Shown here: positions 2,476 to 32,532 of the stretch, piece by piece | Layout of the letters: the number at the start of each line of letters is the position of its first letter | How positions within the stretch are numbered: position 1 is the first letter of the stretch | IMG/VR virus record: IMGVR_UViG_3300028571_002496 | Location: 1-32,532 of that record | DNA length: 32,532 nucleotides | Source of the DNA: a virus | Direction: 5' to 3' (one strand) | Notes under the pieces: model-generated | Seen by the model: the letters and a program-made list of their open reading frames with translations, nothing else | Database searches by the model: none | What the model was told of the DNA's origin: nothing | Program-made: the position numbers and the translations under genes

Positions 2476-3455
2476 AATCTAATTCCTAATTGAATGGTTC
2501 TACTTCCTCCAGCGTCTGAAAAGTTCGTTTCAACACTTGTGCAATAGTAATTTCCTGCCTTTGGATTCTCACCCTTTTCATTCTTGTAATCATCGTCGGA
2601 GAAGTGAACCGTGTAAGTGGGCTCGCAGTAAGGAATCAACCATCCTGTAAATGAGCCTTCGTAACGATTACCACTTCTGAGTAACATTTCAGCATCAACC
2701 AAACTCTCCAAACCTTTTTGAGAGGTTGCAGAAACGGTTCGGGTTATTTTGTCACCTCCTTCAATGCCAGCTTTTGCGGTCAATTTCTTGCCGTCTTTAC
2801 CTGTGCATTCGATGTTAATTTCAATCTTTTTATCTTCTGGTTTCTTATACTCAAGCGAAGCACTTTCCACATTTTGTTGCATGCGGTATTTCACTTGACC
2901 TGTTTTCAAAAGATAAGGCGCATGAATGTGTAATTCCTTCAGCTCGGTATTGAAAAAGATATTCACCTTCAATTCCTCCACCAATTTTAACAGCACATCG
3001 TAAGCCGTTGCTTGGTAAATAGTGAATTTTTCATACGTGAAATCAAAATCGCACACAACGGCGTAACTCTTATCCACCTGGTCTACTAAATACTGCGCTA
3101 TTGTTTTCACAGTCGGCAACTTGAATATCTTATCCGGAACAGATTTACGGAAAACAAAAAGCGCATCCTCGCAGTTGATCACAAGCGCATTTGAATTATT
3201 TGTTATTTCAGTAATGAAACCTACAAACTCCGTTTTTAAATTAGAGTCGTAACCTAGTTTAATCGTAACTGCAGTTCCACGATTGATTTTATCTTCAATC
3301 TTCAAAACGGTATTTAACACCGATTCGGGAAGTACAATTGTAGCCGTGTCCGCAAGGTTCTCAACTGATTTTTTGATATTTACAGACGCGAGCAACTGCA
3401 ACTTGAATTTCTTCCCGTTGTTATTAAATTGTATGTCGTAGTTCAAACTGTACAT
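2472..3455 (-). CDS. Baseplate hub protein (Mu gp44 / gpD-like)
   Basis: A 327-residue hub protein. Features consistent with the late-control-D/gp44 family: an N-terminal beta-rich domain that opens with repeated NNNGKKFKLQLLASVNIKKS, followed by VTIKLGYD and FVGFITEI (first barrel), then a middle domain LVEELKVNIFFNTELKELHI and a second barrel ending GNRYEGSFTGWLIPYCEPTY. The C-terminus PKAGNYYCTSVETNF plus a terminal beta strand closes the trimeric hub on which the spike sits. It lies between DUF6046 and the spike, with overlapping start and stop on both sides. Confidence 0.8.
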   Translation of the reverse strand: MYSLNYDIQFNNNGKKFKLQLLASVNIKKSVENLADTATIVLPESVLNTVLKIEDKINRGTAVTIKLGYDSNLKTEFVGFITEITNNSNALVINCEDALFVFRKSVPDKIFKLPTVKTIAQYLVDQVDKSYAVVCDFDFTYEKFTIYQATAYDVLLKLVEELKVNIFFNTELKELHIHAPYLLKTGQVKYRMQQNVESASLEYKKPEDKKIEINIECTGKDGKKLTAKAGIEGGDKITRTVSATSQKGLESLVDAEMLLRSGNRYEGSFTGWLIPYCEPTYTVHFSDDDYKNEKGENPKAGNYYCTSVETNFSDAGGSRTIQLGIRL

Positions 3456-4126
3456 TAGTCAATTTCTAATAAAAGTTCGCTCGTAAAATCACTTAAACAT
3501 TGAATTTCGTAGGCCTGTACATTCTCACCTTTTGTGAACGGGAATGAGAATGATTTTACAACTACTCGGTTAATTCCAAGCAATTGTAAGGGCTCGCAAT
3601 AAAGTTCAATTCCTGCAGGGTGCGTGCAAAATTCCTTTAAGCGCTCAAATTGTTCAATAGGATAGCAGTCCTCAACGCTTCCAGTTTCAACTGCTCCAAT
3701 CATTACTCCAGTAATAGTAATTTCATAGTCATCTTGTGACCAGTGCTCTTTGACAGTTCCAACAAAGTTTTTTGCCTTTGCCACTTTTCTTGTAATAATT
3801 GAATTGCCACCCGAAATGGAAATCATTGGCTCGTAAGGAAATTGGTAGGCCTGATTTGTTCCTGGTCGCGAAAAAGTAAGTGGAAAGAAATGAGAGGGCA
3901 ATGAATTTTTATCTGCCTGCCAATTATTCAAATCTTTATAATCATTGTAGGCAATATCAATCATTTCGTCTCTAGTACTCGTTCCAAAAAATGGAATCGG
4001 AATCACAGGCAATACACGTTTCGACAATTCATTTTGAACTGTAGCAAAACGCGGTAAGCTTTCAGCTACTTTAGAGCCAACCAATGAAGCAAATATGATT
4101 TGATTTTTATCCATTTTATCCCACAT
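3455..4126 (-). CDS. DUF6046 domain tail protein
   Basis: A 223-residue protein of the DUF6046 type, which is found between tape measure and hub in Bacteroidota prophages, the slot of Mu gp43. The conserved central part includes PLTFSRPGTNQAYQFPYEPM and ITRKVAKAKNFVGTVKEHW followed by YEITITGVMIG. A second half with FTHPAGIEL-like and VVKSFSFPFTKG strands follows. Role is probably the distal tail ring or a hub adaptor. Two in-frame ATGs compete: 4124-4126, overlapping the tape-measure stop, and 4112-4114, lying just after it. Neither has a clear ribosome binding site. Confidence 0.75.
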   Translation of the reverse strand: MWDKMDKNQIIFASLVGSKVAESLPRFATVQNELSKRVLPVIPIPFFGTSTRDEMIDIAYNDYKDLNNWQADKNSLPSHFFPLTFSRPGTNQAYQFPYEPMISISGGNSIITRKVAKAKNFVGTVKEHWSQDDYEITITGVMIGAVETGSVEDCYPIEQFERLKEFCTHPAGIELYCEPLQLLGINRVVVKSFSFPFTKGENVQAYEIQCLSDFTSELLLEID

Positions 4127-16108: not shown

Positions 16109-17459
16109 GCACCACCATTTAACGGAAAGCTATTCGCACACCTGTACTGTTTGTGGTGGAATTGAATTGAGCGCAGAAAACCCCTTGTTTAAAGCCATTT
16201 TAAAAGCTGCTTCAAATGCCCTTAAAAAGTTACACGAAAAGGGCAACTACGAACCAAAGGACTTGCTCGAAATTCCTGAGTTCAAGGCACTACACGACAA
16301 CACAAATGCGCTGTTTTCAAGCACTATTCAATTTGAAGTGAGTAATACACTCAAAGCCTATTTGGAGAAAGATGCGTTTGTTTTTTCGGGCTTACGAACA
16401 CATGCACAATTAGCAGATGCACGTTCCTATCTGAAGGATGAAAAAGGAAATGTAAGAAGTTACAATGACTTTGAGCAAAAAGTATTAAAACTGAATGCGC
16501 AGTATAATCAGAATTACCTGCAGGCAGAATACAACTTTGCAATTCAGTCAGGTTTATCAGCTGAAAAATGGGAAACATTTAGCGACGATGATAAGCGCTA
16601 CTATTTGCAATACAGAACCGCAAAGGATGGAAAGGTGAGAGATTCACACGCCGCACTGGATGAAACTACTTTACCAAAGAGCGATCCATTTTGGAGTAGT
16701 TATATGCCTCCGAATGGATGGAACTGCAGGTGTACAACCGTTGAAGTTTTAGCGAGTGATTACACAAAAGACGATAGTGCTGAAGCAATTGCTAGGGGTG
16801 AAAAAGCAACCACTCAAATTGGTAAGAATGGAAAAAACAAGGCAGAAATGTTTCGTTTTAATCCAGGTGCGGAGAAAAAGATATTTCCACCTAAAAACGC
16901 CTATACTCCAAAGCATTGTAAAGGTGGCAAAGTAGATATGAGCGGATTGATTGGCGTTGCATCAATAGTGTTGAGTCTGGAGGATGAAAAGTGTGAAACT
17001 AAGAAGATGTTAGAGAAGGAAGCGAAAATACGCCAAGTTATAATTGAACGAAATAAACTCAAGGAATGGGCAAAAAAAGAAATTCCAGCCGATAAAGGAA
17101 TCGAAATTATAACAAAAGTTCCTTTCCTTGAAAAATCATACCTTTTTAGAGCTGCTATTGGAAAAATAGCAACGGCAGGACATAAAAATCCTTCCGAAAA
17201 ATTTATTATAGTAAGAAACATTAAAAATGAATTAAAAAATGCAAAATACATTGGATGGGCTGAAGATAGAATAATCAATGGCGTAAAGAAGCATCCAGAT
17301 GTTGATTATTGGAAGTATTATTTGATTGAAAAAAATAACATTGAGCACTATGTATGTGTAAAAAAGACTTACAATTCAATCAATAAAATCTATTCAATTG
17401 AAGATAAAAATGGATTTGCGGATATAATAGGAATAAAAAAAGAGAACCCCATCAGATAA
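16065..17459 (+). CDS. MuF minor head protein with C-terminal nuclease-like toxin domain; expressed by -1 frameshift from portal
   Basis: The -1 frame open from the slip site: 464 residues, giving a portal fusion of about 890. No ATG start exists before the conserved MuF core, only TTG at 16167. Residues 1-33 include HHHLTESYSHTCTVCGG, possibly zinc-binding. The MuF core is recognisable from RTAKDGKVRDSHAALD and PPNGWNCRCTTVEV. From about residue 290 of this frame an extra domain begins: PFLEKSYLFRAAIGKI, LKNAKYIGWAEDR, WKYYLIEKNNIEHYVCVKK, YSIEDKNG. This resembles the phage Barnase-EndoU-ColicinE5/D-RelE-like nuclease tails known on MuF proteins, injected with DNA. Family assignment of the toxin is by eye. 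Confidence 0.75.
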   Translation, partial: RLRAENKQKTYFSALHHHLTESYSHTCTVCGGIELSAENPLFKAILKAASNALKKLHEKGNYEPKDLLEIPEFKALHDNTNALFSSTIQFEVSNTLKAYLEKDAFVFSGLRTHAQLADARSYLKDEKGNVRSYNDFEQKVLKLNAQYNQNYLQAEYNFAIQSGLSAEKWETFSDDDKRYYLQYRTAKDGKVRDSHAALDETTLPKSDPFWSSYMPPNGWNCRCTTVEVLASDYTKDDSAEAIARGEKATTQIGKNGKNKAEMFRFNPGAEKKIFPPKNAYTPKHCKGGKVDMSGLIGVASIVLSLEDEKCETKKMLEKEAKIRQVIIERNKLKEWAKKEIPADKGIEIITKVPFLEKSYLFRAAIGKIATAGHKNPSEKFIIVRNIKNELKNAKYIGWAEDRIINGVKKHPDVDYWKYYLIEKNNIEHYVCVKKTYNSINKIYSIEDKNGFADIIGIKKENPIR

Positions 17460-17516
17460 CGCTTGCAAGTACAACTTGGGCTCAATGATAAGATTCTCTT
17501 CAACAAATTTACAACA

Positions 17517-17538
17517 ATAATTTAAACCACCAAAAATG
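17517..17538 (+). repeat. Leader repeat, copy A (partial)
   Basis: ATAATTTAAACCACCAAA directly before ATG of the first cassette gene. The same bases precede the second cassette gene (18137-18158) and reappear at 18676-18693 before gpG. Only the plus-gene half of the repeat is present here; the left half is replaced by the end of MuF. Confidence 0.75.
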
Positions 17539-17862
17539 AAAGCAGAAATTAAAAAACAATCATGGGGAGTAATAACTATAGAATGTAGTAGTTACAAGAA
17601 TAAGAATGGTGACACTATCTTGGAGCGAACTGTAAAATACGATGATGAGTTGTTATTACAGGACACGATGCCTTATGCACAATTCACAAAGAGCAAAGAC
17701 CTTGTTTCAGAGTTTCAAAACTGGGCATCACCGAGATATAAACAAAGCAGTTGTGCTTGTGATTGCACTAATAATGCTAGTGATAACGCCAACTTTTTCG
17801 GGAAGTTGCGACTTCAAATCCTCCAATTCAAGATTAATTTTTTGAAGATTTTTGTGAAGTAA
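17536..17862 (+). CDS. Cassette protein 1, candidate immunity protein
   Basis: 108 residues, first gene after the MuF-toxin frame (76 bases away). It starts MKAEIKKQSWGVITIECSS and continues KNKNGDTILERTVKYDDEL, then LLLQD. The next plus-strand gene starts MKTKIKKGQLIIAFDILNEN and shares the pattern MKxxIKK, NGxxIL-R and L-LQD, so the two are paralogues. A small gene directly after a MuF-type toxin is where an immunity gene is expected, which is why that role is suggested; no known immunity family was recognised. The last 45 codons lie opposite the 3' end of the minus-strand gene at 17728-18111, and the true end may be shorter. Confidence 0.5.
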   Translation: MKAEIKKQSWGVITIECSSYKNKNGDTILERTVKYDDELLLQDTMPYAQFTKSKDLVSEFQNWASPRYKQSSCACDCTNNASDNANFFGKLRLQILQFKINFLKIFVK

Positions 17863-18111
17863 TTCTTCTATGGCAGTAAATCCACCATGTCTATACAAAT
17901 CAAATGCTTCCACTCTAACATCAATATTGAAGTATCTCATATTTTGTCTAACATTGATATTAACTATGTATCCTTTCCTTTCAAGAAATTCTAAAATAGC
18001 ATTGAGTTGTCGAAAGTCAAAATTGTTTGGCTCAAGAACCTCCCAACTATCTATTGTTTCAGAAGTGCATAGCCATTTTAATACAGCATCTTTTTCTTTG
18101 TAAGTAATCAT
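17728..18111 (-). CDS. Cassette protein 2, winged-helix-like with C-terminal hydrophobic tail
   Basis: 127 residues from the ATG at 18109-18111 (an upstream GTG is less likely). The leader AATTTTCGTGGAAAAATTT matches the leader of the other minus-strand cassette gene, which supports this start. Residues 1-65 (DAVLKWLCTSETIDSWEVL, FDFRQLNAILEFLERKGYI) look like a small winged helix. Then comes HGGFTAIEELLHKNLQKINL and a hydrophobic tail VITSIISAITSTTALF, probably a membrane anchor. A related C-terminus (GGF, NLQK, SIVSGISSAVGLF) is found on the plus strand at 29846-30046. It points against the head operon that surrounds it. Function unknown. Confidence 0.65.
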   Translation of the reverse strand: MITYKEKDAVLKWLCTSETIDSWEVLEPNNFDFRQLNAILEFLERKGYIVNINVRQNMRYFNIDVRVEAFDLYRHGGFTAIEELLHKNLQKINLELEDLKSQLPEKVGVITSIISAITSTTALFISR

Positions 18112-18158
18112 AAATTTTTCCACGAAAATTAATCATATAATTTAAATCACCAAAAATG
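18109..18158. repeat. Divergent leader repeat, copy B (between cassettes)
   Basis: The 50 bases between the two divergent ATG codons: leftward ATG of cassette protein 2 and rightward ATG of cassette protein 3. Its core, 18123-18154, starting CGAAAATTAATCATATAA and ending CACCAAA, is repeated at 18662-18693 with a single difference (T147 versus C). The leftward side (AATTTTCG then GGAAAAA) also repeats. It probably holds divergent promoters and serves as a site for homologous exchange of cassettes. Confidence 0.8.
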
Positions 18159-18608
18159 AAAACAAAAATTAAAAAGGGTCAATTGATAATTGCCTTTGAC
18201 ATTTTAAATGAAAATGGAAAATCTATTCTTCGAAAGGATTACATCAATGGCTCAAAAAAGTTAATAGAATTGCAAGATATTGACATTGTAGATATTGGAA
18301 CTGTTAGGAGACAAGTAGAAGAGCTTGTTCGGGAGTTGGCTGAATTTCTTTCTCCAAATGAGGATCACCCAAAATATCAGGATATAGACGCAATGGGACT
18401 TGATGAAAAAGCGTATATAGATGCGATACATGGGCGACTAATTCCTCGCGTTCAATGTCAAATAACGGAAATGGATAACATCCAAAATGGTCTACCCCCA
18501 AAACCCACGTCACTGAAAAAGTGGAGGGAAATAAGCGGTGCATGGAGCTCAAATAAAAATAAAAATCTTCATTCATCTGATCATTGTAATCCTTCGAGTC
18601 CTCTGTAA
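18156..18608 (+). CDS. Cassette protein 3, paralogue of cassette protein 1
   Basis: 150 residues, beginning MKTKIKKGQLIIAFDILNEN and related to the N-terminus of the gene at 17536. The middle has a helix RRQVEELVRELAEFLSPNED followed by LDEKAYIDAIHGRLIPRV. The last 60 codons read as low-complexity and lie opposite the minus-strand gene 18304-18651; one of the two frames over 18304-18608 may be non-coding or both may be used. Leader repeat B gives this gene the same upstream as copy A. Function unknown; second candidate immunity-type gene. Confidence 0.5.
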   Translation: MKTKIKKGQLIIAFDILNENGKSILRKDYINGSKKLIELQDIDIVDIGTVRRQVEELVRELAEFLSPNEDHPKYQDIDAMGLDEKAYIDAIHGRLIPRVQCQITEMDNIQNGLPPKPTSLKKWREISGAWSSNKNKNLHSSDHCNPSSPL

Positions 18609-18651
18609 AATACATGTGGTTGTATTCGTAATACCTGCGTGTTAGTGCCAT
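18304..18651 (-). CDS. Cassette protein 4, unknown
   Basis: 115 residues from the ATG at 18649-18651, chosen because its leader AATTTTCGAGGAAAAAAT matches that of the gene starting at 18111. The first 60 residues look convincingly coding: MALTRRYYEYNHMYFTEDSK and MNEDFYFYLSSMHRLFP, rich in Tyr, Phe and Asp. The second half overlaps the plus-strand gene 18156-18608 by 305 bases. No domain recognised. It is soluble as far as can be seen, unlike the other minus-strand cassette gene. Confidence 0.5.
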   Translation of the reverse strand: MALTRRYYEYNHMYFTEDSKDYNDQMNEDFYFYLSSMHRLFPSTFSVTWVLGVDHFGCYPFPLFDIEREELVAHVSHLYTLFHQVPLRLYPDILGDPHLEKEIQPTPEQALLLVS

Positions 18652-18693
18652 ATTTTTTCCTCGAAAATTAATCATATAATTTAAACCACCAAA
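18649..18693. repeat. Divergent leader repeat, copy C
   Basis: Second full copy of the leader repeat, with the leftward ATG of cassette protein 4 at its left end and the rightward half (ATAATTTAAACCACCAAA at 18676-18693) leading to gpG. Copies B and C bracket a 540-base unit holding one plus and one minus gene, consistent with gain or loss of cassettes by recombination between copies. Confidence 0.8.
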
Positions 18694-26158: not shown

Positions 26159-26778
26159 GCTGTTTTTGTTTGACCGTGAAATAATGCTGCTTTGTTTTCG
26201 TCAACCGAGATAGATCCACCTGGGCAACGTCCTGATATAAATGCTTTCAATCCCTCTACACGAACGATAATTGAAGCGAGTTTTTTTGCCAATTTTGCGG
26301 CTGCAGTATAAGGTTCGCCACGTTCCTCATGTGCAACCAAAATGATTAATAAATTTGGATGTGCTTGTACGAATTTTCTAAACCCACCCGCTCTGAAATC
26401 ATCCTCATATATTGTGGCGTTATCTAAAATCAATACCTCAGGTGCACGGCGCTTGGAAAGTTTAATCTCCAGTTCCGGGAGCTCTGTATATTCTAAAAAG
26501 GCAAGATTGCGATTGTGTGCTCCTATTTCTGCACGTTGGCAAGCCTCCACAAATGCGGCTGATGTTCCCTCTTCAGCAGATACATACAAGACTTTGGTAA
26601 TGGTTGACAAATAGTTCGCTAATTTTAGTGTGAACCACGTTTTACCATTTTTCTCTCGTCCGTAGATAATCCAAACTCCTGAGGTTTCGGGTGCGCCCAT
26701 TGATGTAAGCCAATCACCATCAAACTCAAATTTCTTGTGAACACGAGCGTAAATGTTATGTGCGCTTAAAAATTTCAT
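26155..26778 (-). CDS. RecA-like P-loop ATPase
   Basis: A 207-residue ATPase with Walker A GREKNGKTW (40-48), a following AEEGTSAAF segment (68-76), Walker B VLILDN (115-120) and a LIILVAHEERGEPY sensor-type strand (144-157). Length and motif spacing suit a compact RecA/RadA/KaiC-core fold (AAA_25-like). It directly follows MuB, with a four-base overlap, and would be a third motor next to MuB, possibly involved in replisome loading, recombination or DNA repair during transposition. Such a gene is not part of the classic Mu set. Confidence 0.7.
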   Translation of the reverse strand: MKFLSAHNIYARVHKKFEFDGDWLTSMGAPETSGVWIIYGREKNGKTWFTLKLANYLSTITKVLYVSAEEGTSAAFVEACQRAEIGAHNRNLAFLEYTELPELEIKLSKRRAPEVLILDNATIYEDDFRAGGFRKFVQAHPNLLIILVAHEERGEPYTAAAKLAKKLASIIVRVEGLKAFISGRCPGGSISVDENKAALFHGQTKTA

Positions 26779-27611
26779 TTTTGTAATAAGAAATATTGTT
26801 CAACTGACCTTCTAACTCTTCTAATATCTCCCTGCGATTCAGCGTAAGCGCGTTCAATTACATCTTCATCATCTACTCCGTTTGCCTTACAAATCAATTG
26901 TACATCTTGAAATGAAGTAGGGTCTAATGCGATGAATTTTCTGCCTATTCGTGACCACAATTCGCAGTAACCAATTTTGTCACGCTGCACACCTTTTAAA
27001 ACTCTTTTTTTCAAGGCAGGAACTCCTGATAACACAAAACCACAGTGGTTGTATAAATCGTTGTAGAAGTCCATGAATAAGTCCATTTGTGGGTCTTTTA
27101 GCTTATCCATCTGGTCAATGATAATGATTGGTGCTTCCAATTCCATCACGTGGCCAATGAATGCTTCAATCATTTCTTCAGTCGTGCCAAACACTTCCAT
27201 TCCACAAGCCGTTAATAATGCTTTTACATAGCTTTTTTTACTCCAGTAGTTTTTACATTCGACATAAATCACATTTTGATTCATGCGCTCAAATGCTTTA
27301 TAGGCGTGGCTCTTTCCATGACCTGCATCGTAAGAAATACCAATTGACATGTGGAGTTGTTTAGATGCGCCCACCAATTCAGTAATCAATTTGAAATTAG
27401 ATGTTACGGCCGTGTTCCAAGAGTCCTCGATGCGAAGTGTTACAGAAACCTTGCGCCACATTTCATCTGCGATTAGTTCCCACTTACCATTGACCATTTG
27501 AGAAATAGTGGCGTTTGAAATGCCTGCCTTATTGGCCACCTTCTTTTGGCTTGATTTGGCAACGAGTTTCTCAAGCTCGTTTACAATTTTTTGTTTTTGA
27601 TTGGGTGTCAT
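26775..27611 (-). CDS. B: MuB-like DNA transposition AAA+ ATPase
   Basis: A 278-residue MuB relative. The N-terminus is a helix-turn-helix (KKVANKAGISNATISQMV, about 23-40), then the ATPase: Walker A GISYDAGHGKS (91-101), Walker B IIIIDQMD (162-169), sensor region FVLSGVPALKKRV (192-204) and C-terminal GDIRRVRRSVEQYFL. In Mu, B binds target DNA, recruits and activates transposase and gives target immunity. It lies 19 bases after the transposase gene and overlaps the RecA-like gene by four bases. Confidence 0.9.
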   Translation of the reverse strand: MTPNQKQKIVNELEKLVAKSSQKKVANKAGISNATISQMVNGKWELIADEMWRKVSVTLRIEDSWNTAVTSNFKLITELVGASKQLHMSIGISYDAGHGKSHAYKAFERMNQNVIYVECKNYWSKKSYVKALLTACGMEVFGTTEEMIEAFIGHVMELEAPIIIIDQMDKLKDPQMDLFMDFYNDLYNHCGFVLSGVPALKKRVLKGVQRDKIGYCELWSRIGRKFIALDPTSFQDVQLICKANGVDDEDVIERAYAESQGDIRRVRRSVEQYFLLQK

Positions 27612-27630: not shown

Positions 27631-29670
27631 TTATAATCTTCCGTAAGAAGTTGATTCCATTGCGCTGCGTTGGTCTTTTGGTACTCTACCACCGTGCTTG
27701 ATTAATAAGTCCTGGTCCTCAATCATTTTTTCAGTTGTCACACCTGTGCTTAGTTCCAGTTGCTTGATGTAGCGTTCGATAGCACTTATTTCGCGCTTGT
27801 CTTGGTCGATGTGTTTCATAGCAAGGGCTTTCTCTCCCTCTTGCATTAGCACAGGCACAACCTCAAATTCTTTTTTCTTCTCAGCTGTAGCAACGAATAC
27901 CAAACCGTTTTCCGTTTCCTTGTATAGTTTCACAAACTGATCTAAATATTCAGGGTCGTATTTGATGATGAATTTTGTGGTCAAGTAATTCTCACGGAAA
28001 GTAATGTCAGGAAGCCCCTCAGAATCGTACACCTCGAATTTGTAAATACGGTCGTGTAATTTCATTTGAATACCTAAACCGAAATAGGTAATTGGTTCTG
28101 TGGTATCTAACCAGAACAATGAAACTTGGTCAAGTATATCTATTTCTTCTTTCATTTTCATTGGATGCGCATATACTTGATTGCGCGATTGACCTTCGAA
28201 ATGAGGATGCTCCGCATTGTTCCACATATACACTATTGTTTCCCAAATCTTAATCACCTGGTCTTTAGTGTACAGTAAGTGCTTGTTTTTTTCGATGAAC
28301 TCCATGTTTGGGCGATTGTCTGCCTTGCGCACCAGGGCGGATTGTTTATCCGAAAACCAAAAAGGAGAAATGTTTTGTTTTTGCAAGCGTTGGAAAATAT
28401 TTTCAACTGGCGAGCTGTGGCGGTAAGCTTGGTGTGGATAATGCGTTCCACCATCAACCGCTACCATATTCGTGTACAGGTCTTGCATGATTTTAGACTT
28501 ATGACCGGATTGATTATCATAAGTGAATAAATAAGGTCTGCATTTAGCTGTATTAAATGCCATTTTAACCGCTGTAAAATGGTCGCTCATATTTTCTGAA
28601 GCTGAAAGGCTGTAGCCTAATATTTTCTCGCTGAAAACGTCCACCACAATATTGATTTTGGCAAGTGCCACTTTTTTGGTAACCTCTTTTTTCGTTTTAG
28701 GGTCAAACACTGTGTCTATGAAAACAACATCCAATTTTGAACCATCGATTCCCCAGTACACATTCGGGAACCATCTGGAGCGATCTCTTGAAAGCGTGTG
28801 GCCAAAAGTATTTTGCCAATCTTGCTTCCCGTGGCGTTTTAGCATCCATACTCGTTTTTGGCGTGGCTCGTTCAACCAGTTGTTGATACCTTGTTCCGTA
28901 AGCATTGGCCATTCTTTTTTCTCACGGATAGCATCGTATTCCTTGAGCAATGCAGGAATTGAAATTTTGTTTTCTATGCAATATTTAGCCAATAACCAGT
29001 CGCCATTTTTTCCATTTCCAAGTATGATTTTTGCCGCGTTGGAAGTTCCAAGTTTTAGCGACACTAAACATTTGTAACCTACTTGAATGTACTGAGCTAG
29101 TTTTTTTCTTAAGCCCTCTTGTGAAGGTGGCAATGTATGAGGAACTATATCTCTAAAATCATTCACTTCTTGGGTTAGCATTGGCCATAAGTTGCCAACG
29201 TGATTTGTAAGATTGACTTTCATTTCTTTTCGATTTTCGCGAATGAAAGTCAAGGTGTTGAGAACGGAAGCGTTCATTGTGTATTCATCAATCAATTCAT
29301 CTGAAAGCTTAATTTGAAACTCTCCATATCGGTGGTCACGAAAGAAGGTGTGAGCGCGTTTGTCGATGGTGTAATATTGCTCGAACAAAGTCTTGGAAGC
29401 CAACTCAGGTGCTTTGCCAAATTTCAAAATAAGGCAACTTTGCCAATGCTTTGAAATCGAATCCCATTCAATGAGAGCAGCAAAATCTTTACACGCTCTA
29501 CGAAGTTGCTTTTCGGCGCATGTATGTTTAGTCATGCGCTGATTGATTGCCTTATAACTGATTAGGTGAAGACTTTCTTCATGCGGTTCACGGTCATTCT
29601 GCAGGAACTTTATTTTCACTCCTAGCTTTCCGTTGTGGTAGTCGTAAGGTGTTATTTTTTCAGGCTTCAT
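27631..29670 (-). CDS. A: Mu-type DDE transposase A
   Basis: A 679-residue transposase. The N-terminal ~270 residues include DNA-binding helices (KQLRRACKDFAALIEW, LAKYCIENKISIPALLKEYD, then WLNEPRQKRVW before the catalytic part). The RNase H-like core shows Asp309 in WGIDGSKLD, Asp385 in FTYDNQSGHKSK and Glu423 in SSPVENIFQRLQKQ. After this come a beta-barrel-like domain (about 510-620) and a basic, helical C-terminus that in Mu interacts with B. It catalyses strand transfer for integration and replicative transposition. The leader carries an inverted repeat (29696-29757). Confidence 0.92.
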   Translation of the reverse strand: MKPEKITPYDYHNGKLGVKIKFLQNDREPHEESLHLISYKAINQRMTKHTCAEKQLRRACKDFAALIEWDSISKHWQSCLILKFGKAPELASKTLFEQYYTIDKRAHTFFRDHRYGEFQIKLSDELIDEYTMNASVLNTLTFIRENRKEMKVNLTNHVGNLWPMLTQEVNDFRDIVPHTLPPSQEGLRKKLAQYIQVGYKCLVSLKLGTSNAAKIILGNGKNGDWLLAKYCIENKISIPALLKEYDAIREKKEWPMLTEQGINNWLNEPRQKRVWMLKRHGKQDWQNTFGHTLSRDRSRWFPNVYWGIDGSKLDVVFIDTVFDPKTKKEVTKKVALAKINIVVDVFSEKILGYSLSASENMSDHFTAVKMAFNTAKCRPYLFTYDNQSGHKSKIMQDLYTNMVAVDGGTHYPHQAYRHSSPVENIFQRLQKQNISPFWFSDKQSALVRKADNRPNMEFIEKNKHLLYTKDQVIKIWETIVYMWNNAEHPHFEGQSRNQVYAHPMKMKEEIDILDQVSLFWLDTTEPITYFGLGIQMKLHDRIYKFEVYDSEGLPDITFRENYLTTKFIIKYDPEYLDQFVKLYKETENGLVFVATAEKKKEFEVVPVLMQEGEKALAMKHIDQDKREISAIERYIKQLELSTGVTTEKMIEDQDLLIKHGGRVPKDQRSAMESTSYGRL

Positions 29671-29695
29671 ATTTAAAAAATATTCAATTTTTTTT

Positions 29696-29757
29696 CGATG
29701 TTACCCAGTCTTATCGACTGGGCTTTTACGGCAGTGTTGCGCGTGGTGGTAACATCG
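29696..29757 (-). other. Inverted repeat with overlapping hairpins in the transposase leader
   Basis: CGATGTTACC (29696-29705) and GGTAACATCG (29748-29757) are perfect ten-base inverted repeats. Inside lies a seven-pair hairpin CCCAGTC-TTATC-GACTGGG (29704-29722) that shares two bases with the outer left arm, so the two stems compete. In the transposase transcript this could be a two-state switch about 25 bases before the ATG, followed by A-rich sequence. It may limit transposase, be a binding site, or be a relic of a mobile element end. Confidence 0.6.
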
Positions 29758-29763
29758 TTTGTT

Positions 29764-29791
29764 TGGCTTCCTGCTGGGGAATCGAACCCCA
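29764..29791 (-). other. tRNA 3'-end relic (T-arm, acceptor strand and CCA)
   Basis: On the minus strand the bases read TGGGG-TTCGATT-CCCCA (T-arm, 5+7+5), then GCAGGAA (acceptor 3' strand), G and CCA. All tRNA positions from 49 to 76 are present, but no complementary TTCCTGC or anticodon arm occurs upstream, so it is not a complete tRNA. Such 3' fragments mark attachment sites of tyrosine-recombinase elements; here it is stranded inside a transposable phage. Confidence 0.7.
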
Positions 29792-29845
29792 GAAAAACCG
29801 TTCAGAAAATCACTACATTTTAGGTATAACTATTTGTCAATTATA

Positions 29846-30046
29846 TTGAGTTTAAAAGCGGTTGATTTTTTGGCTCAAGGTGGCTTTTCTAGTCAGTTTG
29901 AACTCATTGAAGCCAACTTGCAAAAGCTACTTCTTGAAATTGAAAATCTTAAAAAGGAACTTACTCCAGATAGTTTGGACAGGCTTAGCAAACTTTCTAG
30001 TATTGTTTCTGGTATTAGCTCTGCGGTTGGGCTTTTTAAGGTTTAG
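29846..30046 (+). pseudogene. C-terminal fragment related to cassette protein 2
   Basis: 66 codons on the plus strand, running against the early operon, with no start codon of its own; upstream frame reads into the tRNA relic. The product ends FLAQGGFSSQFELIEANLQK then LLLEIENLKKEL and SIVSGISSAVGLF, resembling the C-terminus of the protein encoded at 17728-18111 (HGGF, NLQK, LE-LK, SIISAITSTTALF). A 5'-truncated gene joined to the tRNA relic at about 29820-29845 is the simplest reading. Confidence 0.65.
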
Positions 30047-30253
30047 TATATACCATTCAAATTCGTCTATGGCATTTCCGTCTCTGTATTTAGATTGAAA
30101 ATAAGGATCTGCTAACTTCTCACGAATCAACTCCTCTCCATTGTAAGTTATGATACGCTCAACGTGAGTGATTTCTTCAAATTTTTTTTTGTCATGAATG
30201 CTGAAATAATTAATTGTCATTTCAACATTGATGGTATTTACTAATCGTTCCAT
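29927..30253 (-). CDS. Cassette protein 5, unknown
   Basis: 108 residues from the ATG at 30251-30253, which is preceded by the shared leader TAAATAATTAGAGCG. The first 75 residues look coding: MERLVNTINVEMTINYFSIH, VERIITYNGEELIREKLADP, IDEFEWYILNLKK. The last 30 codons overlap the plus-strand truncated gene at 29846-30046 and are basic and less convincing. No domain recognised; shares only the leader with the gene at 30399. Confidence 0.5.
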   Translation of the reverse strand: MERLVNTINVEMTINYFSIHDKKKFEEITHVERIITYNGEELIREKLADPYFQSKYRDGNAIDEFEWYILNLKKPNRRANTRNNTRKFAKPVQTIWSKFLFKIFNFKK

Positions 30254-30268
30254 CGCTCTAATTATTTA
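30251..30268 (-). repeat. Early-region leader repeat, copy 1
   Basis: CATCGCTCTAATTATTTA on the plus strand (leader TAAATAATTAGAGCGATG on the minus). A second copy lies at 30873-30890 with one difference. Each ends with the start codon of a minus-strand gene. Confidence 0.8.
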
Positions 30269-30325
30269 TTTTATTTTTAGGTGTTAATTGTTAATATTGA
30301 GGTATCTAATCTTAAAATTGTAGTA

Positions 30326-30718
30326 ATGAAAAAATTGAAATGGAATAGTACGAGTGAAAAGCACTTAGAAGATTTCAAGATTCACATAACATTTGAGTTC
30401 AGTGGCTCTGAAACTGATTATGAACTCCTTGTGGCGCATTATCACAATTTGTGTCAGTGTTACAAGCTTGAACTGATTCTGAATCATAAGTATGATGTAT
30501 CAGATCAAGGTGAAGTGTATTCTTACCTGCGAATTTGGGCTCGCAAAACTCACGAGTCGCTTGTAATCCCTCCCCTTTGGTTGACAAATGTTTTTGAACT
30601 CGATGCAAAAGTGTTGCAACGATCTTTTCGAATTCACGAAGTTCTAATTTTTCATTCCCTTGACGAGATAGAGAAATACGAATCAGAATTGGCTCAGAAT
30701 CATTTGGAATGGGATTAG
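30326..30718 (+). CDS. Cassette protein 6, unknown
   Basis: 130 residues from the ATG at 30326-30328. N-terminal part: MKKLKWNSTSEKHLEDFKIH, ITFEFSGSETDYELLVAHYH and YDVSDQGEVYSYLRIWARK, a plausible alpha/beta fold. The last 105 codons lie opposite the minus-strand gene 30399-30875, and both frames look partly coding. It points against the early operon, so it would need its own promoter; the bases 30254-30325 are AT-rich but show no clear promoter. Function unknown. Confidence 0.5.
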   Translation: MKKLKWNSTSEKHLEDFKIHITFEFSGSETDYELLVAHYHNLCQCYKLELILNHKYDVSDQGEVYSYLRIWARKTHESLVIPPLWLTNVFELDAKVLQRSFRIHEVLIFHSLDEIEKYESELAQNHLEWD

Positions 30719-30875
30719 TATTTAATTTCTCATACTCCTCTTTTAGAAACTGTGCCGTCTTGGTTGTTTTCACGCCTCTGATGGATGCGCGGAGGTAGGC
30801 ATCTGAAAAACGATACTTGTTTTTGAGAGAAGTAAGAACTTCGGGATTGATTTGGGTGAGTTTTGGTGTGTTCAT
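30399..30875 (-). CDS. HTH-like paralogue of the first early gene, with extra C-terminal domain
   Basis: 158 residues. The N-terminal 50, PEVLTSLKNKYRFSDAYLRA then SIRGVKTTKTAQFLKEEYEK, is clearly related to the small protein at 31538-31759 (LVVVRLMEKYGFSRRYIQMS, VRGERQAEASELLKKEY), with shared KYxFSxxY, S-RG and LKxEY. The C-terminal 100 residues are unique and overlap the plus-strand gene 30326-30718; the final part is low-complexity and may not be real. A DNA-binding regulator is likely from the N-terminus. Preceded by leader repeat copy 2. Confidence 0.55.
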   Translation of the reverse strand: MNTPKLTQINPEVLTSLKNKYRFSDAYLRASIRGVKTTKTAQFLKEEYEKLNTNPIPNDSEPILIRISLSRQGNEKLELREFEKIVATLLHRVQKHLSTKGEGLQATREFCEPKFAGKNTLHLDLIHHTYDSESVQACNTDTNCDNAPQGVHNQFQSH

Positions 30876-30890
30876 CGCTCTATTTATTTA
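30873..30890 (-). repeat. Early-region leader repeat, copy 2
   Basis: CATCGCTCTATTTATTTA, one base different from copy 1 (30251-30268). It contains the start codon of the gene at 30399-30875 and the stop codon of the BRO gene (30884-30886). The 620-base unit between the copies holds one plus and one minus gene, the same architecture as the 17.5-18.7 kb array. Confidence 0.8.
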
Positions 30891-31513
30891 AGTGAAACTT
30901 TAGCTGCTTGTGTTGTTGCCAATTCCAGTGCTAGGCTGTTGGCTCCTTCGAGCGTGTAGAACAACTTATGGAGGCGGATGCTCGTGTTGGCACGCTCAAA
31001 CAATATTCCGAGCATGGTGGCATCTATCACAGAACCATCCAAAACGCGGTTCACTGCGTATTCGGTTGTGTGGCATTGTTTGGCAACCATTCTGCGGTCG
31101 GTGGTTGATAACACTTTGCGCAAATCGGTAAGCAAACGCTTAGTGGCTAATTTGTCGGCTTTCAGTTTTGCACGATCCATAACGTTGGCATCGATGCTGT
31201 AGGTTCCATACTTGCGAAGAGCTGGCAAAACTTCTGATGTAACCCATTTACTGAATTTGCGAGCTTCAGATTTGTTGCTGCGCATCATCAAAGTGTACAA
31301 TCCGCTCTCTGTTAAGAACATCAAATCTCTATTTTGACCTGATGAGGAAGTTTTCACTATCAGCTTGTCTTCTTCATCTACACTTCTTAATGCTGAAGCA
31401 GTTGTTTGTTTCATTTGCATCGCATCACAAATGTCAGTGGCGCAAAATATAATTTCGCCGTTGTGTTTTTCAGTTCGCACCTCGCCAAACTGTGGGTGTT
31501 GAATTAAATTCAT
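30884..31513 (-). CDS. BRO-family antirepressor-like protein
   Basis: 209 residues. The BRO-N domain covers about residues 1-100: NGEIIFCATDICDAMQMKQT, ALRSVDEEDKLIV, DLMFLTESGLYTLMMRSNKS, FSKWVTSEVLPALRKYGTY. The C-terminal half (KLKADKLATKRLLTDLRKVL) is helical and basic with a NRVLDGSVIDATMLGILFER segment. BRO-N proteins bind DNA, and in phages many act as antirepressors. Second gene of the early operon, next to the repressor, consistent with control of the lysis/lysogeny choice. Confidence 0.8.
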   Translation of the reverse strand: MNLIQHPQFGEVRTEKHNGEIIFCATDICDAMQMKQTTASALRSVDEEDKLIVKTSSSGQNRDLMFLTESGLYTLMMRSNKSEARKFSKWVTSEVLPALRKYGTYSIDANVMDRAKLKADKLATKRLLTDLRKVLSTTDRRMVAKQCHTTEYAVNRVLDGSVIDATMLGILFERANTSIRLHKLFYTLEGANSLALELATTQAAKVSLK

Positions 31514-31537: not shown

Positions 31538-31759
31538 TTATTTTTGGATTAGTTCTTTTTTGCTCTTAAGAAACTGATCAACCTCCTCGCAGAGTTGGTG
31601 ATATTCTTTCTTGAGTAGTTCGGATGCCTCAGCTTGGCGTTCGCCTCTCACAGACATTTGAATATATCTGCGACTAAATCCGTACTTCTCCATCAATCGC
31701 ACCACAACCAATCCATTTAAGTTTTGGTGGGTCCGCTTTTTTGTCTTAGTTTCGCTCAT
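31538..31759 (-). CDS. Small HTH-like early regulator (Ner position)
   Basis: 73 residues, basic, the first gene of the leftward early operon and divergent from the repressor: the place of Ner in Mu. It contains NGLVVVRLMEKYGFSRRYIQ then MSVRGERQAEASELLKKEYH, which could be a helix-turn-helix (RRYIQMSVRGE as recognition region). It is not a recognisable Ner homologue in sequence. A related N-terminal domain occurs in the gene at 30399-30875. A role in negative control of the early or repressor promoter is inferred from position. Confidence 0.55.
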   Translation of the reverse strand: MSETKTKKRTHQNLNGLVVVRLMEKYGFSRRYIQMSVRGERQAEASELLKKEYHQLCEEVDQFLKSKKELIQK

Positions 31760-31845: not shown

Positions 31846-32532
31846 ATGGAAAATACTTTAACTCGTATAAAAAAATTCCTTGATTCTAAAGGGATTTCCG
31901 CACGTGCATTTGAAACAAGCGTGGGAATGTCAAACGGTAGTTTTTCTGCTCAATTGAAGAATAATAAGACAATTGGCGTTGACAAAATTGAAAATATTCT
32001 ACAAATATACCAAGAAATTAACCCAATTTGGCTTTTAACAGGTAAAGGATCAATGCTCCGAGAGGTGTCAGAACCTGACCGTATTGTGGTAGAAAAAGCA
32101 ACAAATTTTTCGCTTGAGCTAAAGCAAGAGCATCAGTTACCGGTGCTAGAACCTGAGGCGGTTGGTGGTTTTGGCAACAATGCGTTTTCGTTCTCAGAGC
32201 AAGATGTAACAGATTATTACGTCATCCCAGACTTTGATAAGCGCAAGGTAGATTTCATCATTCGGCTAACGGGCCACTCAATGGAGCCTAAATTCTTGCA
32301 CGGTGATAAGCTTGCCTGTAAGATCATCAAAGAAAACTCCTTCATCGAATGGAACAAGCCTCACATTATTGCCACTCGCGATCGTGGGTTTATTCTCAAG
32401 CGCATCCGCAAGTCAAGTAATGATCTAAATATGCTAATGGTGTCTGAGGACCCAAATTATGAGCCATTCGAAGTTCCAAAAGAAGAAATAACAGGTATTG
32501 CGCTCGTTGTGGGCGTTATCAGAGTGGAGTGA
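31846..32532 (+). CDS. CI-like repressor with S24 (LexA-like) self-cleavage domain
   Basis: 228 residues, complete with TGA at the last base of the window. The N-terminus is a helix-turn-helix (FLDSKGISARAFETSVGMSN, residues about 11-30, then NGSFSAQLKNNKTIGVDKI). A linker ends in EAVGGFGN (about 104-111), a possible cleavage site. The S24 domain has Ser145 in LTGHSMEPKF and Lys185 in FILKRIR. This architecture means prophage induction by DNA damage through RecA-stimulated self-cleavage, unlike the classic Mu repressor. Divergent from the early operon. Confidence 0.85.
   Translation: MENTLTRIKKFLDSKGISARAFETSVGMSNGSFSAQLKNNKTIGVDKIENILQIYQEINPIWLLTGKGSMLREVSEPDRIVVEKATNFSLELKQEHQLPVLEPEAVGGFGNNAFSFSEQDVTDYYVIPDFDKRKVDFIIRLTGHSMEPKFLHGDKLACKIIKENSFIEWNKPHIIATRDRGFILKRIRKSSNDLNMLMVSEDPNYEPFEVPKEEITGIALVVGVIRVE

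Follow-up and report, generated by a model that had tools for sequence, protein, structure and literature searches.

Candidate accessory genes set against the early operon of a Mu-like phage of Bacteroidota

The early region of virus record IMGVR_UViG_3300028571_002496, analyzed whole as the window (32,532 nucleotides), contains four small open reading frames (ORFs) in two convergent pairs whose 3′ ends overlap: 29846-30046 (+) against 29927-30253 (-), and 30326-30718 (+) against 30399-30875 (-). An earlier note on this DNA correctly placed all four, took both members of each pair to be genes, and read the layout, which recurs near 17.5 kb, as the result of a general mechanism for inserting small gene pairs into phage operons. 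The locus thereby raises two questions: which of the overlapping strands encode proteins, and do the pairs travel as units?

The early region and its relatives

The record belongs to a Mu-like phage of Bacteroidota, and the features discussed here are collected in Table 1. The closest relative found is L001 (IMGVR_UViG_3300046002_008655, G006), with a MuA identity of 72%. The MuA of an isolated relative, Winogradskyella phage Peternella_1, is 38.5% identical, and related prophages are present in Flavobacterium, Pedobacter, Sphingobacterium and Wenyingzhuangia. In Peternella_1 and in L010-L014 a small ner-like gene adjoins MuA and the whole accessory set is absent; the prophage relatives, too, have a small ner-like gene next to MuA. 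In the window, the interval from the ner-like gene to MuA holds ~1.9 kb of additional DNA, and it is here that the two pairs lie. The GC content at 29900-30500 is 31-32%, as against 37-41% in MuA.

Two neighboring arrangements were also seen. The BRO-N/anti-repressor-like gene, for which no match was detected in L001, is placed between two ner-like genes. Beyond the repressor, L001 has a convergent pair of its own (596-874 on the plus strand and 871-1332 on the minus strand, with a 4-bp overlap), one member of which is a small membrane-like protein.

Table 1. Features of the window, with L001 coordinates where given.
Feature	Position	Strand	Remarks
MuF-domain gene	16167-17459	+	PF04233, 4.5e-14; directly before the 17.5 kb array
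Counter-oriented small genes after the MuF gene	17536-18693
MuB	26775-27611	-
MuA-like transposase (rve core)	27631-29670	-	operon gene downstream of the accessory site
Structured leader of MuA	29691-29759; L001 3515-3583	-	three stems; 39 bases in a row invariant between window and L001
Direct repeats flanking the 469-bp segment	29819-29827 TTTAGGTAT; 30297-30305 TTGAGGTAT		imperfect, 9 bp
469-bp segment absent from L001	29828-30296	.	imperfect 9-bp direct repeats at both flanks
5′-truncated C-terminal remnant	29846-30046	+	66 aa; family of 17728-18123 (-)
Tail of ORF 29927-30253	29927-30046	-	antisense to the plus ORF; non-coding-like; codon LLR -0.060
Head of ORF 29927-30253	30047-30253	-	69 codons, non-overlapping; plausible coding; codon LLR 0.109
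Leader copy 2	30251-30268	-	ends in ATG of ORF 29927-30253
Conserved DNA directly upstream of 30326	30297-30325	+	TTGAGGTATCTAATCTTAAAATTGTAGT; candidate regulatory element; near-identical in L001
Counter-oriented accessory (moron-like) gene	30326-30718	+	130 aa; predicted ferredoxin-like fold; relative in L001
Read-through tail of the ner-like ORF	30399-30718	-	antisense to 30326-30718; codon LLR -0.019
Second ner-like gene	30719-30875	-	first 52 codons of ORF 30399-30875; codon LLR 0.083
Leader copy 1	30873-30890	-	ends in ATG of the ner-like ORF
BRO-N/anti-repressor gene	30884-31513	-	PF02498, 4.7e-21; PHROG anti-repressor
ner-like gene	31538-31759	-
Repressor with S24 peptidase domain	31846-32532	+

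The gene at 30326-30718 and its antisense partner

The plus-strand ORF 30326-30718 (30281-30718 in its longest listed form) has a relative in L001 at 3389-3006, in the same place and orientation, with 58% amino acid identity over residues 1-128. The ATG at 30326 is conserved in L001, and the conservation reaches to near the stop codon. Between the two phages the plus frame has a dS of 0.78 and a dN of 0.32. The overlap was assayed with a two-frame substitution test on two sequences, the window and L001, which compares NN, SN and NS rates by the same logic that OLGenie uses (PMC7531306). Changes per site were 0.281 for those nonsynonymous in both frames (NN), 0.537 for those synonymous in the plus and nonsynonymous in the minus frame (SN), and 0.202 for the reverse (NS). 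The NN/SN ratio of 0.52 (0.35-0.77) indicates purifying selection on the plus frame inside the overlap, whereas NN/NS is 1.39 (0.90-2.28) and protein-level constraint on the minus tail is not detectable; in the minus frame, dN (0.43) exceeds dS (0.27). From a two-sequence alignment, AF2 modeled the plus protein with a pLDDT of 71 and a pTM of 0.64; the minus tail reached 56 and 0.42 from an alignment of equal depth. We read the order of elements in the plus protein, E-H-E-E-H-E, as a ferredoxin-like fold, and Foldseek returned only weak, generic ferredoxin-like matches for the model. We conclude from the comparison of the two phages that 30326-30718 is a genuine gene; it runs against the early operon and is conserved at its place in L001.

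The codon usage of this gene is atypical, with an LLR of 0.001 compared with a range of 0.07-0.22 for true genes. Its protein has no significant match in Pfam, PHROG, PADLOC or NCBIfam; database annotation gave nothing significant for any of the four ORF proteins. Among viral contigs, phages, plasmids and 395 Bacteroidota genomes, only the L001 relative holds up. A match in L006 spans 27 residues and was considered too short, two genome matches contain internal stops, and all three were taken as noise. No site with the Bacteroidota promoter consensus TTTG-N18-22-TANNTTTG occurs in the region, and scans for sigma-70-like promoters and terminator-like sequences serving the plus genes gave results near chance, with none recognized.

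The partner on the minus strand, ORF 30399-30875, proves on the same comparison to be a composite: a short ner-like gene whose reading frame continues into the antisense of 30326-30718. Its head is 37% identical to the phage's own ner-like gene and 49% identical to L001 2385-2519, part of a separate 56-aa gene (L001:2361-2531). The L001 gene has its own stop codon, and ~470 bp lie between it and the plus gene; these bases, which include the start of an unrelated 252-aa ORF, are missing in the window. The antisense frame of the plus gene is entered by the 252-aa ORF in L001 and by the ner-like ORF in the window. Because the partner differs while the plus gene stays, the pair 30326-30718/30399-30875 is not moving as a unit. 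We hypothesize that the ner-like stop codon was lost upon deletion of the ~470 bp. Codon usage separates head from tail in each operon-sense ORF of the window's four convergent pairs: the heads are coding-like (LLR 0.08-0.21) and the overlapping tails non-coding (-0.02 to -0.08), suggesting that the "overlapping partner genes" are mostly ordinary operon genes that have lost a stop and run on into the reverse of inserted genes. The claim that each pair consists of two genes is not borne out, since only the first 52 codons of 30399-30875 are coding-like and 29846-30046 is a remnant. The earlier note had named as grounds against its reading that one strand of each overlapping pair is not translated and that the leader match is only a shared translation signal; part of this applies, given the NN/NS of the 30326-30718 minus tail and the non-coding codon usage of the four operon-sense tails.

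The 469-bp segment, the start leaders and the 17.5 kb array

Homology blocks and a global alignment were used to compare the DNA around the first pair with L001. The L001 homology ends at window position 30297 and restarts at 29827, and the two blocks overlap by 9 bp at L001-contig 34007-34015. By this alignment, L001 lacks the segment that in the window carries 29927-30253 (-) and the truncated plus-strand remnant. The L001 site has intact inverted repeats, CACTACA...TGTAGTG (3393-3399 and 3423-3429), which are split by the insert in the window. We favor insertion over deletion because these repeats are intact in L001; as a single relative has the site, the direction is judged from that repeat and from distant outgroups. 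No relatives of ORF 29927-30253 were found in viral contigs. The plus-strand ORF 29846-30046 starts with TTG (its longest listed form is 29759-30046) and is 37% identical to residues 69-128 of the 131-aa protein encoded at 17728-18123 (-), with an E value of about 1e-12; no counterpart of the N-terminal part of that protein was found in the remnant. The remnant is also related to L026, whose relative is 78% identical to the 17728-18123 protein, and to the bacterial genome L023. According to the earlier note the layout, and not the DNA, is repeated between the two arrays, but this homology shows that they share more than the layout.

Each of the two minus ORFs has the leader TAAATAAwTAGAGCGATG at its start codon. 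Even when 3 mismatches are tolerated, the window contains these two sites and no others, where 0.09 would be expected. The upstream bases of the pair agree at 14 of 15 positions, among 123 ORF starts. In 200 column-shuffled nulls the best pair had 13 matches (0/200 reached 14), so that the repeat described in the earlier note is real and beyond chance. The only other pair with 14 matches is 17536/18156, in the 17.5 kb array, and the claim of repeated start leaders in both arrays stands as well. No downstream boundary matching the shared leader was found at 29.8-30.9 kb, and a tail repeat as cassette boundary was rejected there (tail similarity P = 0.06). We read the 18-nt leader as a duplicated translation-start region, which would either have been copied with the insert or have served as a short homology for recombination.

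At 17.5 kb, the window and the near-identical L025 each have two units and L026 has three. The L001 phage has at this site a single, different counter gene of 95 aa without a long partner, between flanks that are 93-97% identical. The only co-inherited pair found lies in this array, both members being 79% identical in two phages. The boundary ATTAATCATATAATTTAAAYCACCAAA recurs in the array, and a 27-bp boundary between units, in which one position varies, is found at 18128-18154 and 18667-18693 of the window and at 1781-1807 and 2244-2270 of L026. A related boundary at 17504-17534, when read backwards, contains an exact match to the Bacteroidota promoter, TTTG-N19-TAAATTTG; judging from its sequence, it may be both the leader of the next operon gene and the promoter of the counter gene.

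The MuF gene before this array has a C-terminus that differs among relatives; that of the L001 phage carries a zinc-peptidase-like HEFGH motif. The literature describes polymorphic toxins of the MuF type together with immunity genes (PMC5576092, PMC11699363), which makes the MuF gene a candidate polymorphic toxin and the 17.5 kb counter genes candidate immunity genes. The array resembles those systems in directly following a MuF gene with a variable C-terminus, and the remnant at 29846-30046 shares a family with one of its genes. Unlike them, the counter genes oppose the MuF gene, and the 29.8 kb site adjoins no MuF gene, as an immunity locus would.

Accessory genes and alternative readings

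The leaders invite another reading, in which convergent pairs act as mobile cassettes and each pair enters as a unit through recombination at the repeats. Leader pairs beyond chance in both arrays agree with this, as do the recurrence of the 27-bp boundary between 17.5 kb units and in L026 and the one 17.5 kb pair common to two phages. However, the 29.8 kb leaders are 18 nt long without a matching far end, so the leader alone does not establish a cassette mechanism; moreover, 30326-30718 has a different partner in L001, the L001 phage carries a lone counter gene at its 17.5 kb site, and the ORFs of 29.8-31.5 kb include no recombinase. With no recombinase in this interval and a leader shared at one end only, an integron-like or recombinase-driven array does not fit either, and we consider mobile cassettes unlikely. 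Of the proposal that gene pairs were inserted, the polymorphic sites remain, because the 469-bp segment is absent from L001 and the gene sets at 17.5 kb vary. Insertion of units by a general mechanism does not, given the changed partner of 30326-30718 and the lack of a recombinase encoded in the region; of the pairs, only one, at 17.5 kb, is co-inherited, and the 30326-30718 pair does not move as a unit.

Other alternatives concern the antisense frame itself. It stays open over 105 codons in one phage and 103 in the other, a degree of openness that most nulls rarely produce (P 0.003-0.06); the excess is weak and comes from two sequences. If both strands were coding, the minus tail would be a real domain, fused to the ner-like head in the window and to another head of 150 aa in L001. 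Openness given the plus protein (P 0.005-0.06) and in forward simulations (P 0-0.03) is in line with this, and minus-peptide similarity is somewhat above expectation (P 0.00-0.17). Against it stand the NN/NS ratio, the excess of dN over dS in the minus frame, a codon usage in the tail that resembles antisense DNA, and the poorer AF2 model of the tail at equal depth; the substitution test rejects dual coding as the main reading, and we find it improbable. Selection could instead favor the read-through ORFs as translation bridges: ribosomes would stay on the early or late mRNA where it is antisense to an inserted gene, and Rho-dependent polarity on MuA and MuB would be prevented. For nine counter genes, the share covered by ORFs of the operon strand is 61-97% and exceeds the codon-shuffle mean every time, but none of the nine reaches significance against codon shuffles (P 0.13-0.51). 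Under codon-usage resampling only one of them falls below 0.05 (0.046), and the nine cases are not independent. The nine-gene ORF-cover test was not significant, and we rate the bridge as very improbable. There is a small chance that selection keeps the frame open in either manner, to supply a domain for fusion with various early proteins or to act as an anti-polarity bridge, and if so, an antisense reading frame would make the backward insertion of a gene into a phage operon harmless.

The simplest reading of our analysis is that accessory, moron-like genes of an already known kind are set against lytic operons at two plasticity sites. We think it likely that accessory genes are gained and lost between the ner-like gene (31538-31759) and MuA (27631-29670) and that the plus genes there are moron-like. 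One or two small accessory genes would have been inserted backwards into the early operon beside the transposase gene. Between conserved phage genes they occur in some relatives and not in others, their GC content and codon LLR are unlike those of their neighbors, and the low GC (31-32%) and atypical codon usage agree with moron-like accessory genes. We hypothesize that the plus genes are expressed in the prophage state, when the early operon is repressed, and that their products give the lysogen a benefit such as superinfection immunity; because no promoter was found, expression in the lysogen is something we infer. A toxin-antitoxin module does not fit genes that are convergent and have no significant domain matches, nor does a functional antisense overlapping pair fit a constrained plus frame with an unconstrained minus frame.

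Morons and plasticity regions have been described in Mu-like phages of the P. aeruginosa D3112/B3 group (PMC4378225). As there, the window has small orphan genes of deviating composition at particular loci between conserved genes, variable in close relatives, and a common recombinase target was not recognized. Unlike those morons, the window genes oppose the operon and overlap operon ORFs, the two sites have a gene family in common, and promoter and terminator are only putative. STMMW_20121 of ST64B is a moron that lies antisense to lytic genes and has a promoter of its own (PMC7067206); the window genes likewise run against lytic genes, an orientation that would suit expression in the lysogen. 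A backward accessory gene, loss of an operon gene's stop and antisense read-through can together mimic "convergent gene pairs", and gene callers will annotate such tails as proteins. Under the moron-like reading, the ner-MuA interval of these Bacteroidota phages is a place for accessory genes, and one gene family links it to a second site behind a MuF-type gene.

Downstream of the accessory site, a structured leader is predicted ~20 nt upstream of the MuA start codon, between flanks that differ in the window and L001. Its fold z-scores are -5.5 and -3.8, with two compensatory pairs; it has no Rfam match and was not found in other loci or in 296 genomes. A tmRNA match at 29774-29917 fell below the Rfam gathering score and was taken as a T-arm-like hairpin. 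In L001, a complete tRNA-like cloverleaf with an encoded CCA (3433-3510) immediately precedes the MuA leader; ARAGORN calls it tRNA-Leu, Rfam scores it at 44 bits, and its anticodon loop, AGTAGTG, is without U33. The window keeps only a T-arm/acceptor-like hairpin of this element, at about 29764-29799 (-).
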